From NCBI RefSeq assembly GCF_014200045.1, contig NZ_JACHOV010000005.1, forward strand, positions 124,001 through 188,000: DNA of 64,000 bases. Direction: 5' to 3'. A program made the translations under genes and the position numbers. Source of the DNA: Rhizorhapis suberifaciens (GTDB taxonomy: Bacteria; Pseudomonadota; Alphaproteobacteria; Sphingomonadales; Sphingomonadaceae). The notes below the pieces were generated by a model that did not search any database, was not told the DNA's origin, and saw only the letters and a program-made list of their open reading frames with translations. Positions 852 to 52,758 of the stretch are shown one piece after another; position 1 is the first letter of the stretch, and every line of letters begins with the position of its first letter.

Positions 852-1589
852 TTAATCCATGACGGACGGCAGATCCTCGAACCCTTTCCGCAAGGCTGCT
901 GCCCAGCTCTGCGAAATTGCGCCGAACTGCGGATCGTCCGCCTCGATCCGTGTGCGCGTGCGGAAATCGAAGGTATCTCGTTCAATGATCGCAAGGTCCA
1001 GAGGCATGCCGACGGAAAGGTTCGACCGCAGCGTCGAATCCATCGACACGCACACTGCCTTGACGCACTCTTCGATCGAGGAGCCGGGGCTGATCACGCG
1101 ATCGAGGATAGGCTTGCCATATTTATGCTCGCCAATCTGGAAATAGGGCGTGTCTACCGTCGCCTCGATGAAATTGCCGGCGCTGTACATAAGATATAGC
1201 CGCGGCCTGCCGCCCTTGCGCTGACCGCACACCATGATCGTGGCGTCCGCGGCCGATCCTTGCAATTCGATTGTATGGCGATACTTGCCCTGCATTGAGG
1301 CCATCGCCTCGCCTGTAAGCTGAGCGACGCGGAACATACTGTCACAATTAAGGATGGTTTCGACATTGGGGTCGTCAGCGGCTTTCTGGATGCCCCGCGC
1401 CAATATCGACTGGACCCCCTGAGTGATCGACAAATTACCCGACATCAATATGCCGATGGCGCGCTCGCCAGGCACTTCATACGTAAACAGCTTCCGAAAG
1501 CGCGAGATATTGTCCATACCCGCATTGGTTCGGGTGTCCGCAAGCATCACAATGCCCGCATCCACTCTTACCGCCACGCAGTAGGTCAT
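852..1589 (-). CDS. Proteasome-type peptidase, Anbu family
   Basis: Protein of 245 aa resembling the bacterial proteasome ancestral beta subunit (Anbu, Ntn-hydrolase fold). The start MTYCVAVRVDAG is preceded by a good Shine-Dalgarno sequence (GAGAGGAAA just before ATG), so the longer in-frame version from 1664 is rejected. After Met removal Thr would be the N-terminal nucleophile. The LADTRTNAGMDNI segment and FRK carry the expected Asp and Lys partners of the active site. No propeptide is present, as is typical of Anbu. Known Anbu proteins form open helical or lock-washer rings; substrates are unknown. The usual companions (alpha-E protein, circularly permuted ATP-grasp, transglutaminase-like protein) are absent from both sides within this window: upstream is a pilin-like gene, downstream trxB. 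Confidence 0.85.
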   Translation of the reverse strand: MTYCVAVRVDAGIVMLADTRTNAGMDNISRFRKLFTYEVPGERAIGILMSGNLSITQGVQSILARGIQKAADDPNVETILNCDSMFRVAQLTGEAMASMQGKYRHTIELQGSAADATIMVCGQRKGGRPRLYLMYSAGNFIEATVDTPYFQIGEHKYGKPILDRVISPGSSIEECVKAVCVSMDSTLRSNLSVGMPLDLAIIERDTFDFRTRTRIEADDPQFGAISQSWAAALRKGFEDLPSVMD

Positions 1590-29678: not shown

Positions 29679-31427
29679 TCAGACTTTTCGCATCCCATGC
29701 CCGTCCGCATTAACGCCACCTGACCTGCTTTGATGCGGTGACGCCGCGACAGACGCAGCCTTGGCTCTTTCCTCGGCAACAAGCTCCTTGCGGCTTAGCT
29801 TGCCTACCATGGTTTTGGGCAGGGATTCGCGTATCTCCACCGCAACCACACGCTCATGCTTTCCGAGCTGCGGATTGAGCCATGCTTTCAAGGTCTCCCC
29901 ATCGATGTCGCTACCGTCCGTCAGCGTTACGAAGGCCTTCGGGCTCTCGCCGCGATAGGAATCTGGAATGCCGATGACCAACGCCTCTTTGACCGTGGGG
30001 TGGCGGTATAACATTTTTTCGATCTCGCTCGGGAATACCTTGAAGCCGCCGACAGCGATCATATCCTTCAGCCGGTCCACAATGCGGATATAGCCCTCTT
30101 CGTCGATCTGGCCCACGTCGCCAGTACGTAGAAACGTCCCGAGGAACACCTCGGCGTCCGCATCGGGCCGCTGCCAATAGCCGCGCATCACCTGAGGCCC
30201 TGCAAAAACGATCTCTCCCGGCTCTCCGAGAGGCGGGGGCCGGGTGGGATCGTCCTTATCCACCAATTTCACAACTGTCGCGGGAAGGGGTTGGCCAATG
30301 GTGCCAGGCTTATTGAGACCGCCATAAGGGTTGGAGGAGACCACACCGCTGCTTTCGGTAAGGCCATAGCCCTCCACCAATACCGAGCCGGTTGCTTCTT
30401 CGAAACGATCCTTCAGTTCCATACGCAGGGGCGCGCCGCCCGAAATGCAATAGCGGACGGACGAGAAATCCGTTTCCTCGATCGCCGGATGATCGAGCAG
30501 CGCTTGAAACATGGTGGGAACGCCCGGTACGCTGGTGGGCCTTGTCCGGGAAATGGCGGCAAGCATCTGACCGGCGTCGAAACGCGGCAGCATGATGATC
30601 TCACCACCTGTATAGACGGTGCGGTTCAGAGTGACCGTATTGGCAAAAACATGGAAGAATGGCAGCGCGGCTAGAATTCGATCTTCCAGGGCGTTGGCGG
30701 GATCCAGCATGTTCACTTGCCGCGCATTGGCGCTCAAATTTTGGTGCGACAGCATGGCCCCCTTGGGTCGACCGGTAGTGCCGCCCGTATATTGCAGCAA
30801 TGCAAGATCGCGCTCCGGATCGATTTCCGCTGGCACATGACTGCCATCATTGTGAATAAGCGAAGAAAAGGGCGTTACGCGCGGATGACGTGGTCGGGGC
30901 ACCATCTCATTACGGCGAAACATGCGATACAGGATGGATTTAGCGGTGGGCAAAGCCCCGGCGACCGATCCCACCACCAATTGTTCCAGGCTGCTGTTTT
31001 CCAGCACCTCCAGAGCAGTAGGGAGAAGAGCGCTGGCGGAGAGGGTGAAAAGAATTTTCGTTCCTGAATCCTCGACCTGATGCTCAAGCTCCTCCGCGGA
31101 ATAAAGCGGCGAGAAATTGACCACGGTCGCGCCAATCGTCAGCGCACCATAATAGGCGGCGACATAATGCGGCACATTGGGCAGGAACAAGCCAACCCTA
31201 TCGCCCCTCTTCACCCCCATGGCCTGCAATCCATGGGCCACCCGTTTTACCCCGTCGCGGCATTCGGCATAACTGAACTTGCGCCCCATGAAATCAATAA
31301 GGATGGCGTCCGGCTTACGGGCGGCGGTGTCGAAGAACATGGCCGGCAGGGAAAGGGATTTAAAGTGCTGATCCCAGGCGATGGGATGATTATATTTCTC
31401 TGTCCAGACTATCTTTTCGTCAGCCAT
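29679..31427 (-). CDS. Long-chain fatty-acid-CoA ligase
   Basis: 582 aa AMP-forming ligase that activates fatty acids for beta-oxidation. It has the ATP motif YTGGTTGRPKGAMLSH near residue 219, VEGYGLTESSGV, and the hinge FLRTGDVGQIDEEGYIRIVDR with the KxxK-type Lys in the C-terminal part (LPKTMVGKLSRKEL). Length and motif order fit FadD. An ATG start with a modest ribosome site is used. The C-terminus has an extra low-complexity tail of about 25 residues. Confidence 0.9.
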   Translation of the reverse strand: MADEKIVWTEKYNHPIAWDQHFKSLSLPAMFFDTAARKPDAILIDFMGRKFSYAECRDGVKRVAHGLQAMGVKRGDRVGLFLPNVPHYVAAYYGALTIGATVVNFSPLYSAEELEHQVEDSGTKILFTLSASALLPTALEVLENSSLEQLVVGSVAGALPTAKSILYRMFRRNEMVPRPRHPRVTPFSSLIHNDGSHVPAEIDPERDLALLQYTGGTTGRPKGAMLSHQNLSANARQVNMLDPANALEDRILAALPFFHVFANTVTLNRTVYTGGEIIMLPRFDAGQMLAAISRTRPTSVPGVPTMFQALLDHPAIEETDFSSVRYCISGGAPLRMELKDRFEEATGSVLVEGYGLTESSGVVSSNPYGGLNKPGTIGQPLPATVVKLVDKDDPTRPPPLGEPGEIVFAGPQVMRGYWQRPDADAEVFLGTFLRTGDVGQIDEEGYIRIVDRLKDMIAVGGFKVFPSEIEKMLYRHPTVKEALVIGIPDSYRGESPKAFVTLTDGSDIDGETLKAWLNPQLGKHERVVAVEIRESLPKTMVGKLSRKELVAEERAKAASVAASPHQSRSGGVNADGHGMRKV

Positions 31428-31529
31428 TTATACGAGCGTAAGATATGGCCGGTCGGGATGCAATGGGCAGCGTGGTTTCGCGCACGCGGCATATGCAGCG
31501 AAAGCCAGAATTCAGTGCGGCCGCACGTC

Positions 31530-31555
31530 TGTACCCCGGCCATCGCCGGGGTACA
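31530..31555. repeat. Strong intergenic hairpin
   Basis: TGTACCCCGGC and GCCGGGGTACA pair perfectly over 11 bp around a CATC loop. It lies between trcR (ending 31562) and fadD (starting 31427), both minus strand. There is no U-tract, so it could be a processing or pausing element. Confidence 0.55.
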
Positions 31556-31561
31556 TTCATA

Positions 31562-32254
31562 TCACCCATTCTTCTTGCTGAAAGGATCGATCCATTCGGC
31601 AACCTGCTCGATGCCTTGCGCCTCGATATGGTGGGCTTCTTCAATACGCCGAACAGCATCGTCGCGTTCACGACGAAGCTCTTGGATCAAAGCTTCTCGA
31701 TCGCCGTCGAGACGAGAGTCAGCCGGGGCCTCAATTCCCGCCTTCTTGGCCGCCCGAGCCACCAATGCATCCAGTTCCCGCTGAGAGCAGAGACCAAGCG
31801 TGACCGGGTCTTTCGGCACGATGTTGGCGATGTTCCAGTGGGAGCGGTCACGGATGGCGGTAATCGTGGTGCGGGTCGTACCGATGAGCTTACTGATCGC
31901 GCCGTCTGAAACTTCCGGATGATTGCGCAGGATCCAGGAGATGCCGTCGGGTTTGTCCTGCCTCTTCGACACCGGAGTGTAGCGCGGTCCCTTCGTGCGG
32001 CGAACCTGCTCGGGTCCTTTCAGCATCTTTAGCCGATAGTCGGAGTCCTTCTGACCCTTCTCGATCTCGTCCATGCTAAGCTCATGCGCGCGCACTGGAT
32101 CGCGACCGGTATATTTGATCGCCGCTGTATCGTCTGCAATGGCCTGAACTTCAAGGATATGAAGGCCACAAAAATCGGCAATCTGCTCAAACGACAGCGC
32201 GGTATTATCGATAAGCCAGCTGGCGGTCGCATGTGGCATGAGCGGCTGGGGCAC
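31562..32254 (-). CDS. trcR: TrcR/DUF1013 cell-cycle transcriptional regulator
   Basis: About 230 aa. The start region VPQPLMPHATASWLIDNTAL and SFEQIADFCGLHILEVQAIA match DUF1013, a family conserved in alphaproteobacteria and called TrcR in Caulobacter, where it acts with cell-cycle control. A helix-turn-helix-like region sits around GAISKLIGTTRTTITAIRDR. The C-terminus is coiled-coil-like and charged. The GTG at 32254 is chosen because GGAGAG precedes it; longer versions reach into the upstream hairpin. The symbol is by family resemblance. Confidence 0.85.
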   Translation of the reverse strand: MPQPLMPHATASWLIDNTALSFEQIADFCGLHILEVQAIADDTAAIKYTGRDPVRAHELSMDEIEKGQKDSDYRLKMLKGPEQVRRTKGPRYTPVSKRQDKPDGISWILRNHPEVSDGAISKLIGTTRTTITAIRDRSHWNIANIVPKDPVTLGLCSQRELDALVARAAKKAGIEAPADSRLDGDREALIQELRRERDDAVRRIEEAHHIEAQGIEQVAEWIDPFSKKNG

Positions 32255-32269
32255 GTTATACTCTCCAGT

Positions 32270-32304
32270 ACAAATAATAAGGGCCGCCCCTTGCAGGACG
32301 GCCT
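32270..32304 (-). terminator. Candidate terminator between glycosyltransferase and trcR
   Basis: On the minus strand the 10-base 5' arm AAGGCCGTCC pairs with GGGCGGCCCTT across a short loop, with one imperfection, and is followed by ATTATTT. It would end the two-gene transcript from 34300. Confidence 0.5.
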
Positions 32305-32390
32305 TCGCGTGGCATGCAATAGTGCAATTGGCCAAGCCCGGCAAGGACTAACACAGTATATAGCGTGATTGGCCGCCGGGTAACAAGCTA

Positions 32391-33419
32391 TTAGGCGGCG
32401 TCCAGTACAAGATCGGGATTGAAGGGCGCCAATCCCTCGAGAAATTGGCGTGCGCTGGCTTGCCAGGTAAAGCTTTGCCCATAGGTGGCGCATCCGGGCC
32501 GATCCAGGACGAGTGCGGCGGCTATTGCGTCGTCCAGACTCTCTCGCATGGCTCCTGTCTGCGGCGTCAATATATCGATAGGGCCAGCCACGGGATAAGC
32601 GGCAACGGGCGTACCGCACGCCAACGCCTCGATGATGACCAGGCCAAAGGTGTCGGTGCGGCTTGGAAAAACGAACACATCGGCATGTGCGTAGGCACCG
32701 GCAAGTTCGCGCCCTGACATGCTGCCCAGAAAATGCGCTTCCGGCCAGTCCCGCTCCAGCCCCGCCCTGGCAGGCCCGTCTCCCACAATGACCTTGCTGC
32801 CAGGCTGACGCGTAGACAGGAATGCCTCCAGGTTCTTCTCCACAGCTATCCGGCCCACATAAAGCTGTATCGGTTGGGGCAAGTCCGCAAAGGCCGCAGG
32901 CATTGGCGCATCGGGGCTGAAATGGCCAAGGTCAACGCCCCTGCCCCAATGCCGCACCTGCGCAATGCCATGGGCCCGCAGACTGTCGCGCACGCTCCGC
33001 GTCGACACAAGCACCGCCTGGGCAGGTCCATGAAACCAACGAATATAACGCCAGAACCAAGATGCAGGCAACCGCGTCCGCCGCGCCACATAATCGGGAA
33101 AATGCGTGTGATAGGCGGTCGTGAATGGTATTCCGTTGCGCCGACACCAGCGGCGGGCCGATAGACACAGCGGTCCTTCGGTCGCCAGATGCACCGCATC
33201 GGGAAGAAACGCCTCGATCCGCCGCCCCACCGTCGCCGCCCGCGTCACCGCCAAGCGGATTTCAGGGTAGGTTGGACAGGGTAATGATCCATATTGTTCC
33301 GGCGATATCACCTCCACAGCATGGCCCATGCGTTCCAATTCATAGCGCACCGACTGCAGTGTTCGCACCACTCCGTTCACCTGAGGCGTCCAAGCGTCCG
33401 TGACGAGCATTATTCTCAT
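32391..33419 (-). CDS. GT4-type glycosyltransferase (Agt-like)
   Basis: 342 aa. The N-terminal motif MLVTDAWTPQVNGVVRTL and the C-terminal sugar-nucleotide region FVFPSRTDTFGLVIIEALACG (EX7E type) mark a GT-B family 4 enzyme. TTAYHTHFPDY and HWGRGVDLGHFSP are seen in diacylglycerol glycosyltransferases and mannosyltransferases. The ATG at 33419 overlaps the stop of the metallophosphoesterase gene as ATGA. In other alphaproteobacteria the same two-gene pair (agt-plcP) makes glycolipids to replace phospholipids during phosphate limitation. The diacylglycerol acceptor is an inference. Confidence 0.82.
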   Translation of the reverse strand: MRIMLVTDAWTPQVNGVVRTLQSVRYELERMGHAVEVISPEQYGSLPCPTYPEIRLAVTRAATVGRRIEAFLPDAVHLATEGPLCLSARRWCRRNGIPFTTAYHTHFPDYVARRTRLPASWFWRYIRWFHGPAQAVLVSTRSVRDSLRAHGIAQVRHWGRGVDLGHFSPDAPMPAAFADLPQPIQLYVGRIAVEKNLEAFLSTRQPGSKVIVGDGPARAGLERDWPEAHFLGSMSGRELAGAYAHADVFVFPSRTDTFGLVIIEALACGTPVAAYPVAGPIDILTPQTGAMRESLDDAIAAALVLDRPGCATYGQSFTWQASARQFLEGLAPFNPDLVLDAA

Positions 33420-34300
33420 GCAGCCAGTCTCTCCTGACGCCTCGCGCCGGCGTTGCGGGCGGCGACCTCGTCGGCCCAATGCAGAACCTCCATCCGACCG
33501 TCGAAATGCTCCACCAGGGCCGTGCGGCTTTCGACCCAGTCGCCATCATTATAATAGACGACCCCGGCGATCTCTCGGATTTCCGCGGTGTGGATATGTC
33601 CGCATACAACCCCGTCAACGCCGCGCGCGCCGGCCTCATGCGCCACCACTTCCTCGAATTTGGAAATGAACGCGACGGCGTTTTTTACCTTGTGCTTGGC
33701 CATTTTGGAAAGCGACCAATAAGAAAGTCCAAAGCGGCTGCGCACAGCATTTACCACCACATTGAGCCGCATCAGCGCCTCGTAAGCGGCATCACCAACA
33801 AAGGCCAGCCAGCGGTGCGCCAGCATGATCGTGTCGAATTCATCGCCGTGCAGGACGAGCAGTTTGCGCCCGTCGGCCGTTTCGTGGATGGCCTTGCGCC
33901 TGATTTCGACGCCGCCGAAGTTGAGGCCGGTGAACTGCCGAAACATCTCGTCATGGTTACCGGGGATGAAGATTATTCTCGTCCCCCGCTTCACCCTTTT
34001 CAGAATACGCCAGACAATGTCATTATGCGCCGCAGGCCAGTAAAAGCGCTTCTTCAGCCGCCAGCCGTCGATGATGTCACCGACCAGATACATGGTCTCA
34101 CTATCGACATTGTCTAGAAAGTCGATGAGCAGGTTGGCGTTACAGCCCCGGGTGCCCAAATGGATGTCTGAAATCCAGACCGTCCGGTAACGCCGCCGCT
34201 CACCCGACACCGTTTCCGGATGGTGCGGCACATTGACGGAGAAATCATCGATGTCCGCGCCAAAAGGCAATCGCGTTATCGCATCCATGCGAGACCTCAA
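33416..34300 (-). CDS. PlcP/LpxH-like metallophosphoesterase
   Basis: 294 aa calcineurin-like phosphoesterase. Metal ligands: DIHLG with D45 and H47, LVGDIIDGW with D75, PGNHD at 114-118, LHGDEFD and, later, GVVCGHIHTAEIR. The sequence (TVWISDIHLGTRGCNANLL and VKNAVAFISKFEEVV) looks more like the manganese phospholipase C PlcP of Sinorhizobium than like enteric LpxH. If so, it removes the head group of phosphatidylcholine or phosphatidylethanolamine to give diacylglycerol, the substrate of the downstream glycosyltransferase. Some annotation sources call it UDP-2,3-diacylglucosamine diphosphatase. The first 38 residues are an extension. Confidence 0.8.
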   Translation of the reverse strand: MRSRMDAITRLPFGADIDDFSVNVPHHPETVSGERRRYRTVWISDIHLGTRGCNANLLIDFLDNVDSETMYLVGDIIDGWRLKKRFYWPAAHNDIVWRILKRVKRGTRIIFIPGNHDEMFRQFTGLNFGGVEIRRKAIHETADGRKLLVLHGDEFDTIMLAHRWLAFVGDAAYEALMRLNVVVNAVRSRFGLSYWSLSKMAKHKVKNAVAFISKFEEVVAHEAGARGVDGVVCGHIHTAEIREIAGVVYYNDGDWVESRTALVEHFDGRMEVLHWADEVAARNAGARRQERLAA

Positions 34301-34379
34301 AAGCTGCTGCTCTCGAGACCAGCCATTTAGCGGGACTTTGTGACAGTTTGACTTGAAATATGACGGAAGCGCTACGGTT

Positions 34380-35387
34380 TCAGGGGATCAGCACGATCTT
34401 CCCCAAATGTTGCCCCACCTCCATCCGAGCATGAGCGGCAGCAGCCTCAGCGAGCGGGAACCTACTATCTATCACCGGACGCAGCGTGCCGTCCTCTACA
34501 AATGGCCACACCGTCTGCGCCAGCTCTTCTGCGATCAACGTCTTGAACGCAACCGATCGAGGACGCAGCGTCGAGCCGGTCAGCGTCAACCGCTTCTGCA
34601 TGACCGAGACGATTGGAATTTCCGCCTTTATGCCTCGCTGCGTGGCGATCGACACATGTCGCCCCTCCTCTGCAAGGCAGGAAAGATTTCGCGCCACATA
34701 ATCCCCGCCAACCATGTCCAGCACCGCCTGCACGCCCTTTCCTTCCGTGATTTCACGGACTCCATCCACAAAATCCGTTGTGGCATAATTGATCGCATGA
34801 GCGGCACCGATCTTTCGCGCAGCATCACATTTCGCGTCGCTGCCGCACGTCACGATGGCCTCGATACCGAACAGCTTGCACAGCGAAATGGCCATGGTGC
34901 CGATACCACTGGTGCCGCCGTGAATAAGGACGGTGTCGCCCTCTACCACATAAGCCCTCTCAAACAGGTTGCTCCACACGGTAAACAGCGTCTCAGGCAA
35001 GGCCGCAGCCTCGATCATGTCATATCCTTCGGGCACCGGCAGGCATTGTCCCACCGGCGCGACAGCATATTCGGCATAGCCTCCGCCCGCGAGAAGCGCG
35101 CAAAAAGGTTGACCGATCAAAGCGGCGTCCACATAGGGTCCGCCAGCGACGACAATTCCCGACACTTCAAGTCCGGGAATATCCGAAGCGCCGGGCGGCG
35201 GTGGATAAAAACCGCGCCGCTGCAAGACATCCGGACGATTGACGCCCGCCGCGCTTACCTTGATGAGGACTTCGTTTTCCCCAGGCTGAGGCACCTTGCA
35301 GACGACCGGCTTCAACACGTCTGCGCCTCCGGGGGCATCGAACCCGATAGCCGTCATGGACTCTGGAATATTGCCTTCTTGGGACAT
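34380..35387 (-). CDS. NAD(P)H-dependent quinone oxidoreductase, MDR family
   Basis: 335 aa zinc-independent medium-chain dehydrogenase of the quinone oxidoreductase/PIG3 type. SAAGVNRPDVLQRRGFYPPP near residue 46, PGLEVSGIV, the cofactor motif IHGGTSGIGTMAISL near residue 148, and the C-terminal AHARMEVGQHLGKIVL ending fit this group. No zinc-binding cysteines of alcohol dehydrogenase type are present. Divergent from the DUF1192 gene; no ribosome site stands out. Confidence 0.88.
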   Translation of the reverse strand: MSQEGNIPESMTAIGFDAPGGADVLKPVVCKVPQPGENEVLIKVSAAGVNRPDVLQRRGFYPPPPGASDIPGLEVSGIVVAGGPYVDAALIGQPFCALLAGGGYAEYAVAPVGQCLPVPEGYDMIEAAALPETLFTVWSNLFERAYVVEGDTVLIHGGTSGIGTMAISLCKLFGIEAIVTCGSDAKCDAARKIGAAHAINYATTDFVDGVREITEGKGVQAVLDMVGGDYVARNLSCLAEEGRHVSIATQRGIKAEIPIVSVMQKRLTLTGSTLRPRSVAFKTLIAEELAQTVWPFVEDGTLRPVIDSRFPLAEAAAAHARMEVGQHLGKIVLIP

Positions 35388-35477
35388 TTATCATCACTCC
35401 CTCAAGCCCACGCTGCTTTGCGACAAATGGACTATAGCCTTATTGACAGATGCATTTGGAGGGTCAACATTCCGCCC

Positions 35478-35675
35478 ATGGACATGGATGAAAATCTGCC
35501 CCGGAAGGTTGATGATCCCATTGCCGCCGTCGCGCGGCAAGACCTTGATCCATTCTCCGTTTCAGAGCTCCATGAAAGGATAGCTGCCCTGGAAGCGGAG
35601 ATTTCCCGTACAATGAAAAAAATTGAATACGCCGTTAACCATAAGGCAAGCGCCGAGGCGTTATTCAGGAAATGA
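35478..35675 (+). CDS. DUF1192 family small protein
   Basis: 65 aa. Starts MDMDENLPRKVDDPIAA and continues with SVSELHERIAALEAEISRT, a short predicted coiled coil that defines DUF1192. Function is unknown; it is widespread in alphaproteobacteria. It is transcribed away from the quinone oxidoreductase and toward clpA (160 bases downstream). Confidence 0.8.
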   Translation: MDMDENLPRKVDDPIAAVARQDLDPFSVSELHERIAALEAEISRTMKKIEYAVNHKASAEALFRK

Positions 35676-35835
35676 CCCTGTGCCGGCCGGATTTCGCTGA
35701 TAGGCAACACCAGAGCGCAACCCGGTGACAGTTCTGCCGTCCTTGATAGCAGGACCGCCAATCCCGACATTGAGTCCAAGGCTCCCGTCTTGGGAGCAAG
35801 CGGGGCCTGCCTTGGCCCTACAGGAGTAGAATAGA

Positions 35836-38160
35836 ATGCCTTCTTTTGCTGCTGCGCTGGAAACCACTCTCCACAATGCGCTGACCCATGCATCGGAACG
35901 CCGTCACGAATATGCGACGCTGGAGCATCTGTTGCTCGCGCTTATCGATGACGAGCATGCTTCGAAAGTGATGCAGGCGTGCGGCGTGGACCTGGGTGAG
36001 CTTCAGGATGCAGTAACCGTTTATCTCGACAATGAGCTTGACTCGCTCAAGGTCGAGGGTGCGACCGACCCCTCCCCTACCAGCGGCTTTCAACGCGTGG
36101 TGCAGCGGGCCATTCTGCACGTCCAGTCTTCCGGAAAGGATGAAGTGACCGGCGCCAACGTTTTGGTCGCACTGTTTTCAGAGCGGGAAAGCTATGCCGT
36201 CTACTTCCTGCAGCAGCAGGACATGAGCCGTCTTGATGCGGTCAGCTATATCAGCCACGGCGTTGGCAAGGGTGTAAGCACGCCGGAGCCGCGCGAGGTG
36301 AAGGGCGCTGAGGAAGAAAAGGTTCAGAAGGCCGAAACGAAGAGCAAGAAGGAAAGCGCGCTCGATCAATTCACCGTCAATCTTAACGAGAAGGCAGCCC
36401 GGGGCAAGGTCGATCCGCTTATCGGCCGCGGGCCGGAGGTCGATCGCACGGTGCAGATTTTGTGCCGCCGGTCGAAAAATAACCCGCTCTATGTGGGCGA
36501 TCCCGGCGTGGGCAAGACCGCCATCGCGGAGGGCCTTGCGCGCAAGATCGTCGAAGGCGACGTGCCCGAAGTACTCAGGGAAGCCGTGATCTACTCACTG
36601 GACATGGGCGCGCTGTTGGCGGGCACGCGCTATCGCGGCGATTTCGAGGAGCGACTGAAGGCTGTCGTGAACGAGCTTGAAAAGCTTCCCCACGCAGTGC
36701 TCTTCATCGACGAGATTCACACCGTCATCGGCGCAGGCGCAACCAGCGGCGGCGCAATGGACGCATCGAACCTGCTGAAACCAGCCCTTTCAGGCGGGAC
36801 AATCCGCTGCATCGGTTCGACCACCTACAAGGAGTTTCGCAACCACTTCGAAAAGGACCGCGCGCTGCTCCGCCGGTTCCAGAAGATCGACGTCAACGAG
36901 CCGACGATCGATGACACCGTGAAGATCCTCGCGGGCCTTCGCAGCGCCTTCGAAAATCATCACAAGGTCAAGTACACGCCAGACGCCATCAAGGCAGCCG
37001 TGGAGCTTTCCGCTCGTTACATCAATGACCGGAAGCTGCCCGACAAGGCGATCGACGTGATCGACGAGGTCGGCGCGATGCAGATGCTGGTGCCGCCCGC
37101 CAAACGGCGCAAGACCATCACCTCGAAAGAAATCGAGGCGGTCATCGCGACGATGGCGCGCATTCCTCCCAAGTCGGTTTCGTCCGATGACAAGGCCACG
37201 CTGGAAACACTCGATACCGACCTGAAGCGCGTCGTGTTCGGCCAAAACAAGGCGATCGAGGTGTTGTCTAGTGCCATCAAGCTGAGCCGTGCCGGTCTGC
37301 GTGATCCTGACAAACCCATCGGCAACTATCTCTTCTCCGGCCCCACCGGCGTGGGCAAGACCGAGGTTGCCCGCCAACTCGCGACCCTGCTTGGCATTCC
37401 GCTGCAGCGGTTCGACATGTCGGAATATATGGAACGCCATTCCGTCAGCCGCCTTATCGGCGCACCTCCGGGCTATGTGGGCTATGACCAGGGCGGTCTC
37501 CTGACCGACGCAGTGGATCAGCAACCGCATTGCGTCCTGTTGCTCGACGAGATCGAAAAGGCGCATCCCGATCTGTTCAACATCCTGTTGCAGGTCATGG
37601 ACAATGGGAAGCTGACTGACCATCACGGCAAGACCGTAGATTTCCGCAATGTAATCCTCATCATGACGACCAATGCCGGCGCAAGCGACATGGCGCGCGA
37701 AGGTATCGGCTTTGGCGATGTCATCAGCAAGGAGGATGCCAGCGAGGAAGCCGTCAAGCGGCTCTTCACGCCGGAATTCCGCAACCGCCTCGACGCCATC
37801 GTGCCTTTCAGCTACCTGCCGCCCGAAGTGGTCGCTCGCGTGGTCGAAAAGTTCATCTTGCAGCTCGAATTGCAGCTGGCTGATCGCGACGTGCATATCA
37901 CGCTGGAGGAAGATGCCAAGGCATGGCTCACCGAACGGGGCTATGACAAGCTCTATGGCGCACGCCCCATGGGCCGCCTCATTCAGGAGAAGATCAAGCA
38001 GCCGCTCGCTGAAGAACTGCTCTTTGGCAAGCTGGTCCATGGCGGCGAAGTCCATGTGCGCCTAAAGGACGATGCCCTGAGCTTCGAAATCACCCCCGCC
38101 CCGCCCAAGCGTCCGAAAAAGGGCGGTGGCGAGAAAAAGGCCGCGGCCAAGGCGAAGTAA
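35836..38160 (+). CDS. clpA: ATP-dependent Clp protease ATP-binding subunit ClpA
   Basis: 774 aa AAA+ unfoldase that feeds substrates to ClpP. An N-domain occupies residues 1-140, D1 has GDPGVGKTAIAEGL and LFIDEIHTVIG, and D2 has GPTGVGKTEVARQL and LLLDEIEKAHPD. A REGIGFGDV segment corresponds to the IGL/IGF loop that docks ClpP. The C-terminus is a Lys-rich tail (KKGGGEKKAAAKAK). clpS is not next to it in the 160 bases upstream. The ATG has AGGAGTAG in front of it. Confidence 0.94.
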   Translation: MPSFAAALETTLHNALTHASERRHEYATLEHLLLALIDDEHASKVMQACGVDLGELQDAVTVYLDNELDSLKVEGATDPSPTSGFQRVVQRAILHVQSSGKDEVTGANVLVALFSERESYAVYFLQQQDMSRLDAVSYISHGVGKGVSTPEPREVKGAEEEKVQKAETKSKKESALDQFTVNLNEKAARGKVDPLIGRGPEVDRTVQILCRRSKNNPLYVGDPGVGKTAIAEGLARKIVEGDVPEVLREAVIYSLDMGALLAGTRYRGDFEERLKAVVNELEKLPHAVLFIDEIHTVIGAGATSGGAMDASNLLKPALSGGTIRCIGSTTYKEFRNHFEKDRALLRRFQKIDVNEPTIDDTVKILAGLRSAFENHHKVKYTPDAIKAAVELSARYINDRKLPDKAIDVIDEVGAMQMLVPPAKRRKTITSKEIEAVIATMARIPPKSVSSDDKATLETLDTDLKRVVFGQNKAIEVLSSAIKLSRAGLRDPDKPIGNYLFSGPTGVGKTEVARQLATLLGIPLQRFDMSEYMERHSVSRLIGAPPGYVGYDQGGLLTDAVDQQPHCVLLLDEIEKAHPDLFNILLQVMDNGKLTDHHGKTVDFRNVILIMTTNAGASDMAREGIGFGDVISKEDASEEAVKRLFTPEFRNRLDAIVPFSYLPPEVVARVVEKFILQLELQLADRDVHITLEEDAKAWLTERGYDKLYGARPMGRLIQEKIKQPLAEELLFGKLVHGGEVHVRLKDDALSFEITPAPPKRPKKGGGEKKAAAKAK

Positions 38161-50947: not shown

Positions 50948-51186
50948 ATGTCATATGTCGGCAACCCGGCCCCCGGGCGCAAGTATTGTTTGCTATTTCC
51001 CCCTTCGTTTTCAAAATGGTTTCGAAATGAACTGTAGTTGGTCGGCGGCAAAGAACGGCTCGCCGCACGCGAAAGCCGTTTACCACGATCTTAAATTGAC
51101 TTTAACCTTAGTGAGGCAGAAGAATCCTTGAATAAGCTGGGCGAAGGGCTCCTTGTTCGACATGGCCCGTCGGGGGATGCAACATC

Positions 51187-52758
51187 TTGTTTCAGAAGAG
51201 TGAAATTGGTCTCGGCCAGGGCGGCGCTGCTGTATCGCTGTCGCTTGCCAACGCGCTTCCAGCGCCTGCCCTTCCGGCAAACTGGCGCGAACGCCTTCGC
51301 GAATATTGCGAAGAGGTCAATCTTGTCCCTGATCTCGGCCAGCGCATCGGTTCCGCGGAATGGTTCCGCGGCGCGCTGACATGTGCAGCGCTTTGCGCCA
51401 GCGCCCTTTATCTCTCTCCCGGCTTTGCGCCCATTCCAGCCGCATCCGAACCGATGCTGACCGATCGGCAGTTCGACGAAGCCCGCACTCAGATGATCAC
51501 GCCGCTGGCTCTTGGTGCGGACTCCGGGCGCCATATGGCCGCCAATGACGCTGTCGTTCCTTTAAAAGAAACGCCCGAGCGCCCCCAGATAGACCTTACG
51601 GCCCAGGTTGGCAGCGGCGACGGTTTCGGCAGCGCACTGCGCCGGGCCGGCGTCAGCAATACCGATACCACAGCAGTGATGGACCTGCTTTCGGGAAGCA
51701 TCGGGGCGCTTACTCCGGGCACACGCCTCGACATCCGCCTTGGCCGGCGCGCCTCGCGAAACATGCCTCGGCCGCTGGACGCGCTCGCCTTCCGAGCAAA
51801 ACTGGAACTCGCCATCACGGTCAATCGTGTGGACGGCAAGCTACAAGTGAACAAAATTCCCATCGCGGTGGACGACACTCCACTGCGGATCCGCGGCGAG
51901 GTAGGCTCCAGCCTTTATCGTTCCGCGCGTGCGGCCGGTGCGCCGCCCAAAACCATTCAGGCTTATCTAAAAGCGCTTGCCACCAAATTGTCGCTGGACA
52001 GCGACGTCAGCGCCACCGACGAATTCGACATCATCCTGGGTTATCGCCGGGCGGAAACCGGTGAGGTGGAAGTGGGCGATCTGCTCTTCGCCGGTTTGGA
52101 GCGCACCAGTCGCAAGGATGTGAACCTGCTGAAATGGCAAACCGGCGGCCGCACGGAATGGTTTGAAGCGTCAGGCGTAGGCGAACAGCGCGGTCAATTG
52201 GCAGCGCCGGTATATGGCCGGCAAAGCTCAAGCTATGGCATGCGCCGCCATCCTATCCTCGGCTATAGCCGCATGCACGCCGGCATCGACTTCGCCGCAC
52301 CCTACGGTGCCCCCATCTATGCCGCGACGGACGGAAGGGTAGTCTATTCCGGACGCCATGGCGGTCATGGCAAATACGTAAAGATCAGCCACGGCAATGG
52401 TCTTGCTACCGGCTATGCCCATATGAGCCGCATCGTCGCCGATGCAGGTGATTATGTCCGCCGCGGCCAGATTATCGGATATGTGGGTTCGACCGGGCTC
52501 TCGACCGGTCCACATCTCCATTATGAGCTTTACCGCAACGGCCAGACCATAAACCCCCGCTCCGTCAAGTTCACCACGACGGCGCAACTCGCGGGCAACG
52601 ACCTCCGCCGTTTCCGCAACCGACTTGCGGAGCTTAAAAGCCTCAAGGCCGGCCCGCAGGAACCCATTCGGAGCGCCGAAAAGCCGCGCGTGAAGCTCAG
52701 TGAAGAACCCAAGGAAATCGCCTTCCTGCCCGACGGATCCAAGCGGGTCTTGCGGTAA
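51187..52758 (+). CDS. M23 family peptidoglycan DD-metallopeptidase
   Basis: 523 aa. A TTG start with GGGGGA upstream gives a cytosolic N-terminus of about 55 residues (LREYCEEVNLVPDLGQRIG), then one transmembrane helix (FRGALTCAALCASALYLSPG, residues 59-78). The periplasmic part has LysM/OapA-like regions and ends in an M23 domain: MHAGIDFAAPYG with zinc His/Asp and STGPHLHYELYRNGQ with zinc HxH. Likely a cell-wall endopeptidase or amidase activator. The coding frame continues 29 bases from the hemB start. Confidence 0.9.
   Translation: MFQKSEIGLGQGGAAVSLSLANALPAPALPANWRERLREYCEEVNLVPDLGQRIGSAEWFRGALTCAALCASALYLSPGFAPIPAASEPMLTDRQFDEARTQMITPLALGADSGRHMAANDAVVPLKETPERPQIDLTAQVGSGDGFGSALRRAGVSNTDTTAVMDLLSGSIGALTPGTRLDIRLGRRASRNMPRPLDALAFRAKLELAITVNRVDGKLQVNKIPIAVDDTPLRIRGEVGSSLYRSARAAGAPPKTIQAYLKALATKLSLDSDVSATDEFDIILGYRRAETGEVEVGDLLFAGLERTSRKDVNLLKWQTGGRTEWFEASGVGEQRGQLAAPVYGRQSSSYGMRRHPILGYSRMHAGIDFAAPYGAPIYAATDGRVVYSGRHGGHGKYVKISHGNGLATGYAHMSRIVADAGDYVRRGQIIGYVGSTGLSTGPHLHYELYRNGQTINPRSVKFTTTAQLAGNDLRRFRNRLAELKSLKAGPQEPIRSAEKPRVKLSEEPKEIAFLPDGSKRVLR

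Follow-up and report, generated by a model that had tools for sequence, protein, structure and literature searches.

A putative PlcP-Agt lipid-remodeling gene pair behind a candidate degenerate Pho box in Rhizorhapis suberifaciens, a bacterium apparently without lipopolysaccharide synthesis

Under low phosphate conditions, PlcP makes diacylglycerol and Agt glycosylates it in the characterized relatives of the proteins described herein (PMC4796936, PMC9239053, PMC8528852, PMC3972451, PMC8231724), and mutants have demonstrated this pathway in two of these reports (PMC8528852, PMC9239053). In Pseudomonas aeruginosa, Agt1, which is encoded by the plcP-agt1 pair PA3219-PA3218, uses UDP-glucose only and makes MGDG only (PMC8528852), whereas the Agt of Agrobacterium (Atu2297, PMC3972451) and GTcp of Candidatus Pelagibacter HTCC7211 (PMC8231724) accept several UDP-sugars. 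A plcP-agt double mutant of Methylosinus lost GADG and retained MGDG (PMC9239053). Erythrobacter sp. NAP1, in which agt lies downstream of plcP (type 2 arrangement), makes MGDG and GADG when limited for phosphate, and also makes the betaine lipid DGTS (PMC4796936).

The locus analyzed in the present study belongs to R. suberifaciens, the genome of which measures 3.36 Mb in 34 contigs and is rated 100% complete with a contamination of 0.33. It lies in a stretch of 64,000 nucleotides, hereafter the window, in which ORF translation identified a metallophosphoesterase at 33416-34300(-) and a GT4 glycosyltransferase at 32391-33419(-). The two ORFs have the ATGA at 33416-33419 in common, and the overlap by 4 bases in the original prediction was thus found in the letters. 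Gene order is the same as in the P. aeruginosa pair, and agt lies downstream of plcP as in Erythrobacter sp. NAP1. Pfam assigned the phosphoesterase to Metallophos (PF00149, 35.6 bits, cut-off 21.5) and the glycosyltransferase to Glyco_transf_4 (84.2 bits) and Glyco_trans_1_4 (67.4 bits). The features of the locus are as follows.

33416..34288 (-): plcP, putative intracellular phospholipase C of the PlcP type (metallophosphoesterase); reading frame open from TTG 34300, with ATG 34288 as the likely start
32391..33419 (-): agt, putative GT4 diacylglycerol glycosyltransferase (Agt/GTcp type), from identity, profile score, and GTcp residues
34360..34377 (-): candidate pair of Pho-box half-sites, CCGTAGC-gctt-CCGTCAT, spaced 11 bp apart; several relatives have 11-bp repeats at the corresponding position
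34340..34346 (-): candidate promoter-proximal half-site CTGTCAC, counterpart of CTGTAAC in relatives; EM motif, matrix score 11.08
34325..34330 (-): position of a -10-like hexamer, CTAAAT (CCATAG-like in many relatives); conserved alignment columns +18 to +21, weak in the window
32282..32303 (-): terminator-like stem-loop after agt; consensus match only, near chance level

ATG 34288, which gives a protein of 290 aa, is more likely to be the start of plcP than TTG 34300 because relatives start at the equivalent codon, with MDAI or MNAI in L034, L035, L036, L037, and L039 (GTG in L037). The plcP gene of L034, the draft genome of a genus-mate, is interrupted in frame by a TAA near codon 193, which reflects either an assembly error or decay, and L034 was left out of the trees and matrix for this reason. 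The candidate terminator proposed to follow the glycosyltransferase gene is present as a stem-loop at 32303-32282(-), 88 bases beyond the stop (9 pairs, 7 of them G-C, tail CTTATTATTT); however, three such sites occurred in the scanned stretch, compared with 1.7 on average in shuffled sequences, and the terminator is therefore weak evidence. Rfam returned nothing at the gathering threshold for positions 30000-36000 of the window.

The window phosphoesterase was 56% identical to the PlcP-type protein beside Agt1 in a P. aeruginosa record (L085) and 50% identical to its Sinorhizobium meliloti homolog (L084), but only 24% identical to Escherichia coli LpxH, a distantly related member of the calcineurin-like phosphoesterase superfamily. 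A PlcP profile trained on 27 members of the class, all from outside the family, gave the window protein 400 bits, two PlcP references 382 and 368 bits, and E. coli LpxH 31.5 bits. The metal-binding motifs of the phosphoesterase core (D45xH47, GD75, GN115H116D, H151GD, and GH235xH237) were invariant in 17 aligned rows, and GNHD occurred in 17/17 aligned PlcPs, in contrast to GNRD in E. coli LpxH. In a 41-row PlcP tree with LpxH and the two other phosphoesterases of the genome, the branches of these additions were saturated and the LpxH outgroup was unplaceable; therefore, the assignment rests on identity and profile scores. These results support the PlcP identity that had been predicted for this protein, and the comparison with PlcP and LpxH proposed at that time came out in favor of PlcP by identity and profile, but not by phylogeny. 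The closest contigs by phosphoesterase belonged to an alphaproteobacterial MAG (86%) and Sphingobium (80-82%), followed by Sphingomonas, Blastomonas, and Hephaestia (79-80%), and we accordingly regard the host as a sphingomonad close to Sphingobium.

Regarding the two reference proteins, we infer that L084, the sole place listed in record CP090106.1, is the characterized S. meliloti PlcP. This record is titled pSymB and measures 3.7 Mb, which we take to be the size expected of the S. meliloti chromosome, and the title may be wrong. A plcP match was found on three P. aeruginosa plasmid records, and the one that was opened (L085, CP075839.1) has an agt1-type gene, azoR3, and CyaB; this region is apparently of chromosomal origin. 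From its gene order and these neighbors, L085 appears to be the PA3219-PA3218 pair, and it has the same 4-base overlap as the window.

Identity of the glycosyltransferase to the Agt1-type protein was 53%; the values for an Agt2-type protein (L087, assigned solely from similarity and species) and for the best paralog in the genome were 37 and 29%, respectively. An Agt profile trained on 24 rows, all from outside the family, gave 482 bits for the window protein and 459 for the Agt1 type, against 216 for the Agt2 type and 165 for the best paralog. In a quick tree of 61 rows, for which the careful search was unfinished, the window protein grouped with Agt1 and plcP-linked glycosyltransferases. Residues essential in GTcp have been reported (PMC8231724), and those present in the window protein, matched to GTcp by number, motif, and spacing only, were G16, G82, H104, R190, K195, T257, F258, G259, and E264; by number and motif, R163 and W320 of GTcp probably correspond to R160 and W319. 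Residues numbered as GTcp G16, G82, H104, R190, K195, T257, G259, and E264 were invariant in 57 rows. A difference that weighs against the assignment was noted at number 85, at which the window protein has Cys, while GTcp and the Agt1-type protein of P. aeruginosa have Gly; the change of GTcp Gly85 to Ala nearly abolished activity (PMC8231724). Cys85 was found in 8/57 rows, namely, the window, the genus-mate, and six relatives in the family. The similarity to Agt that had been predicted for the window enzyme is supported by these comparisons, and it is of the GT4 type, as are GTcp and the Agrobacterium Agt. In the quick tree, the best GT4 paralog (L063 1225-2490(+)) and the Agt2-type protein formed a group with long branches (SH-aLRT 93), and this paralog could be a glucuronosyltransferase. 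P. aeruginosa differs from the locus described herein in having Agt2 as a second enzyme.

The pairing of plcP and agt goes far beyond chance. With an E limit of 1e-10, 103/289 genomes of the class had a plcP match, which in a few cases was weak or partial. In the 119 genomes of the family, plcP was found in 86 (E limit 1e-10) and an agt relative in 87 (the different E limit of 1e-60); the latter was present in 86/86 genomes with plcP versus 1/33 without it (Fisher p 3e-28, the genomes being related and not independent). In the sole genome with agt and no plcP, G312, the contig ends within agt. Among the 86, agt followed plcP on the same strand at a distance of no more than 400 bp in 84; the two exceptions were G349, with a gap of 1,583 bp, and G295, with two copies of both genes that are adjacent by coordinates. 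The plcP copies of G295:C1, a single-contig genome that is 86% complete, are in several pieces, which could be sequencing errors. Among the loci examined, an agt relative was present on the same strand in 30/30 from the family, which were mostly the best-scoring of the 86 and thus biased to close relatives (the co-occurrence count covers all 86), and in 24/27 from the rest of the class; of the remaining three, L008 meets a contig end, and L012 and L019 lack agt. The named loci had an agt relative in 68/80 cases, at up to 120 bp downstream in 64 of these, at 199-358 bp in three, and on the upstream side in L149, and the 4-base overlap of the window was found again in 21 of these 68. The 12 without agt in the flank (10 betaproteobacterial by title, one Caulobacter, and one gammaproteobacterium) suggest that PlcP can work with other partners.

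Three GTCA repeats had been noted upstream of the pair and judged not to form a standard Pho box. The letters agree: the GTCA words start at 34364, 34352, and 34344, with spacings of 12 and 8. The Pho box consensus is CTGTCATNNNNCTGTCAT with 11-bp spacing (PMC8528852), and a Pho box is predicted in the same paper for P. aeruginosa plcP-agt1. A strict Pho-box pattern had two matches in the genome (0 in the control), neither at plcP; one of the two (L079, around 1500-1520(-)) lies within the gene for a ferrochelatase and ahead of that for an acetoacetyl-CoA reductase, and may be chance or a promoter within the gene. However, a degenerate Pho box is a better reading of the window promoter than no Pho box, with one 11-bp pair and a half-site off register, and hence the GTCA spacings of 12 and 8. 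CTGTCAC lies 20 bp after CCGTCAT in the window, and the corresponding spacing is 22 in L055 and 23 in L035. Half-sites exactly 11 bp apart occur in several relatives, e.g., CCGTCAT-N4-CCGTGAA-N4-CTGTAAC in L055, and are absent in others.

An EM search of 31 upstream regions, including that of the window, yielded the motif CTGTAACAat...ccGccATAGgc with a log-likelihood of 216 versus 52-64 in five letter-shuffled sets, which were given fewer restarts. The matrix was built from 27 relatives without the window and genus-mate, the site positions being taken from the EM run that included the window, and L038 and L043 were left out because of negative EM scores. The window site scored 11.08, second on both strands of the 64 kb. 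The top site (51078-51121(+), 15.66) lies ahead of an ORF at 51187, which presumably encodes an M23 peptidase, and is probably due to chance. In the same genome, the matrix gave 11.8 to CTGTCAT-CAAA-CTGAAAC-GCAA-TTGTCAC ahead of pstS, second in a 19-kb stretch (top 14.04). Scores of at least 11 were obtained for 26/38 further sphingomonad promoters, from species related to the training set, versus 2/536 control pieces; this test left out L112 and L126, which are titled Alphaproteobacteria only, and kept L089, which is titled alike. None of the seven promoters of more distant sphingomonad loci (L121-L125, L127, and L128) reached 11. PhoB, PstC, and PstA of the host exceeded curated cut-offs, and the PstS and PhoR models matched below theirs. 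Taken together, a PhoB-type promoter is supported in the relatives by their sequences; the genes, sequence families, linkage, and shared promoter motif are features of the locus as observed.

Automatic annotation would make the phosphoesterase a true LpxH, i.e., a UDP-2,3-diacylglucosamine diphosphatase. This label stands under the match in 24/32 plasmid records with a PlcP match, one of them from a Sphingomonas (the other 8 are unannotated), and PDB sequence searches, which yielded distant relatives only, gave LpxH 5k8k as the sole match to the phosphoesterase at E up to 1 (E 0.0016). The window protein also scored weakly on the two NCBI LpxH models, with 37.7 bits (cut-off 190.35) and 39.7 bits (cut-off 134); however, this is not above the level of the PlcP-type references, which scored 38.1-55.1 bits over both models (38.9 for S. 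meliloti and 44.5 for P. aeruginosa on the former), versus 364-389 bits for E. coli LpxH. The low identity to E. coli LpxH and GNHD in place of GNRD also argue against this reading. The original prediction named a grouping with true LpxH enzymes, together with the lack of another lpxH in the genome, as what would speak against it: the scores place the protein with PlcP, and no other lpxH was found, but lpxI and lpxC were also absent from the listings. Searches of the host genome listed no match for LpxH, LpxI, or LpxC, which were matched in 3/14, 1/14, and 4/14 control genomes, respectively. The LpxH search passed over the window protein itself and is thus blind to weak relatives, but a protein like E. 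coli LpxH would not be missed; a Metallophos search listed three genes, including that of the window. Since neither lpxI nor lpxC was listed, no part in lipid A synthesis seems to remain for the window phosphoesterase. Therefore, a lipid A role is very unlikely, we give the LpxH reading almost no credence, and the host is apparently without LPS synthesis.

An alternative for the glycosyltransferase is that it acts on ceramide to make the glycosphingolipids that sphingomonads carry in place of LPS (PMC6445935), with PlcP as a mere neighbor. In Caulobacter, Sgt1 and Sgt2 belong to GT4 and are controlled by PhoB, and their best matches outside Caulobacteraceae are in Sphingomonadaceae (PMC6445935). 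However, among the sequences compared here, which included the Agt1 and Agt2 types, the nearest characterized type is the diacylglycerol enzyme Agt1 of Pseudomonas, and the presence of agt tracks that of plcP. An agt relative is also missing in 32/119 family genomes, which is odd for an LPS substitute, and among Novosphingobium glycosyltransferases the Agrobacterium-like cluster (Gta) stands apart from the ceramide enzymes of the Sgt1 and Sgt2 clusters (PMC13318209). A Sgt-like function is accordingly considered to be highly improbable. A real operon that is constitutive or responds to a signal other than PhoB is somewhat easier to entertain, given that the strict pattern misses the degenerate box of the window and that the matrix motif is absent in seven relatives at a greater distance, but the conserved promoter block, the 11-bp repeats in several relatives, and the motif shared with pstS make it unlikely.

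We consider it very probable that plcP and agt form an operon for the PhoB-driven replacement of membrane phospholipid by glycosyl-diacylglycerol under low phosphate; the activities, sugar, co-transcription, PhoB binding, and physiology are what we infer from the characterized relatives. When phosphate is scarce, PhoR/PhoB would become active, and PhoB would bind the predicted Pho box around 34340-34377 and drive a single transcript covering both genes. PlcP would cut membrane phospholipids into diacylglycerol and a phosphoalcohol, from which phosphate would be salvaged. Agt, with its translation coupled via the ATGA overlap, would add glucose and/or glucuronic acid from a UDP-sugar to diacylglycerol, and phosphate-free glycosyl-diacylglycerol would fill the membrane. 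P. aeruginosa Agt1 makes MGDG only and the Methylosinus mutant keeps MGDG, and the product of the window pair may be MGDG, GADG, or both. Neither DUF3419 (BtaA family) nor PF13444 (OlsB type) had a match listed in the host genome, in which respect it differs from the DGTS-producing Erythrobacter sp. NAP1, and plcP-agt is therefore the sole one present of the three phosphate-free lipid routes sought. The outer membrane of the Sphingobium-like clade probably rests on glycosphingolipids in place of LPS. A more speculative idea, which we regard as doubtful, is that Agt specificity has shifted in this clade, with Cys85 for the essential Gly, and that its glycolipid aids or replaces outer-leaflet glycosphingolipid under phosphate stress, beyond inner-leaflet phospholipids.

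The window pair is an unremarkable and well-conserved example of a two-gene pathway that is already known. Erythrobacter sp. NAP1 is presumably also a sphingomonad at the level of the order. The arrangement and its lipids are already known in that strain (PMC4796936). Literature searches on sphingomonads or Novosphingobium with plcP and phosphate listed, by title, no study of the pair in Sphingobium. The oddities of the window copy are the Cys at a glycine that is essential in GTcp and a host that apparently lacks LPS. The present results extend a tested pathway to a bacterium that apparently does not synthesize LPS, indicate that annotating these proteins automatically as UDP-2,3-diacylglucosamine diphosphatase is misleading, and provide a putative PhoB-type promoter family for sphingomonads that is open to testing.
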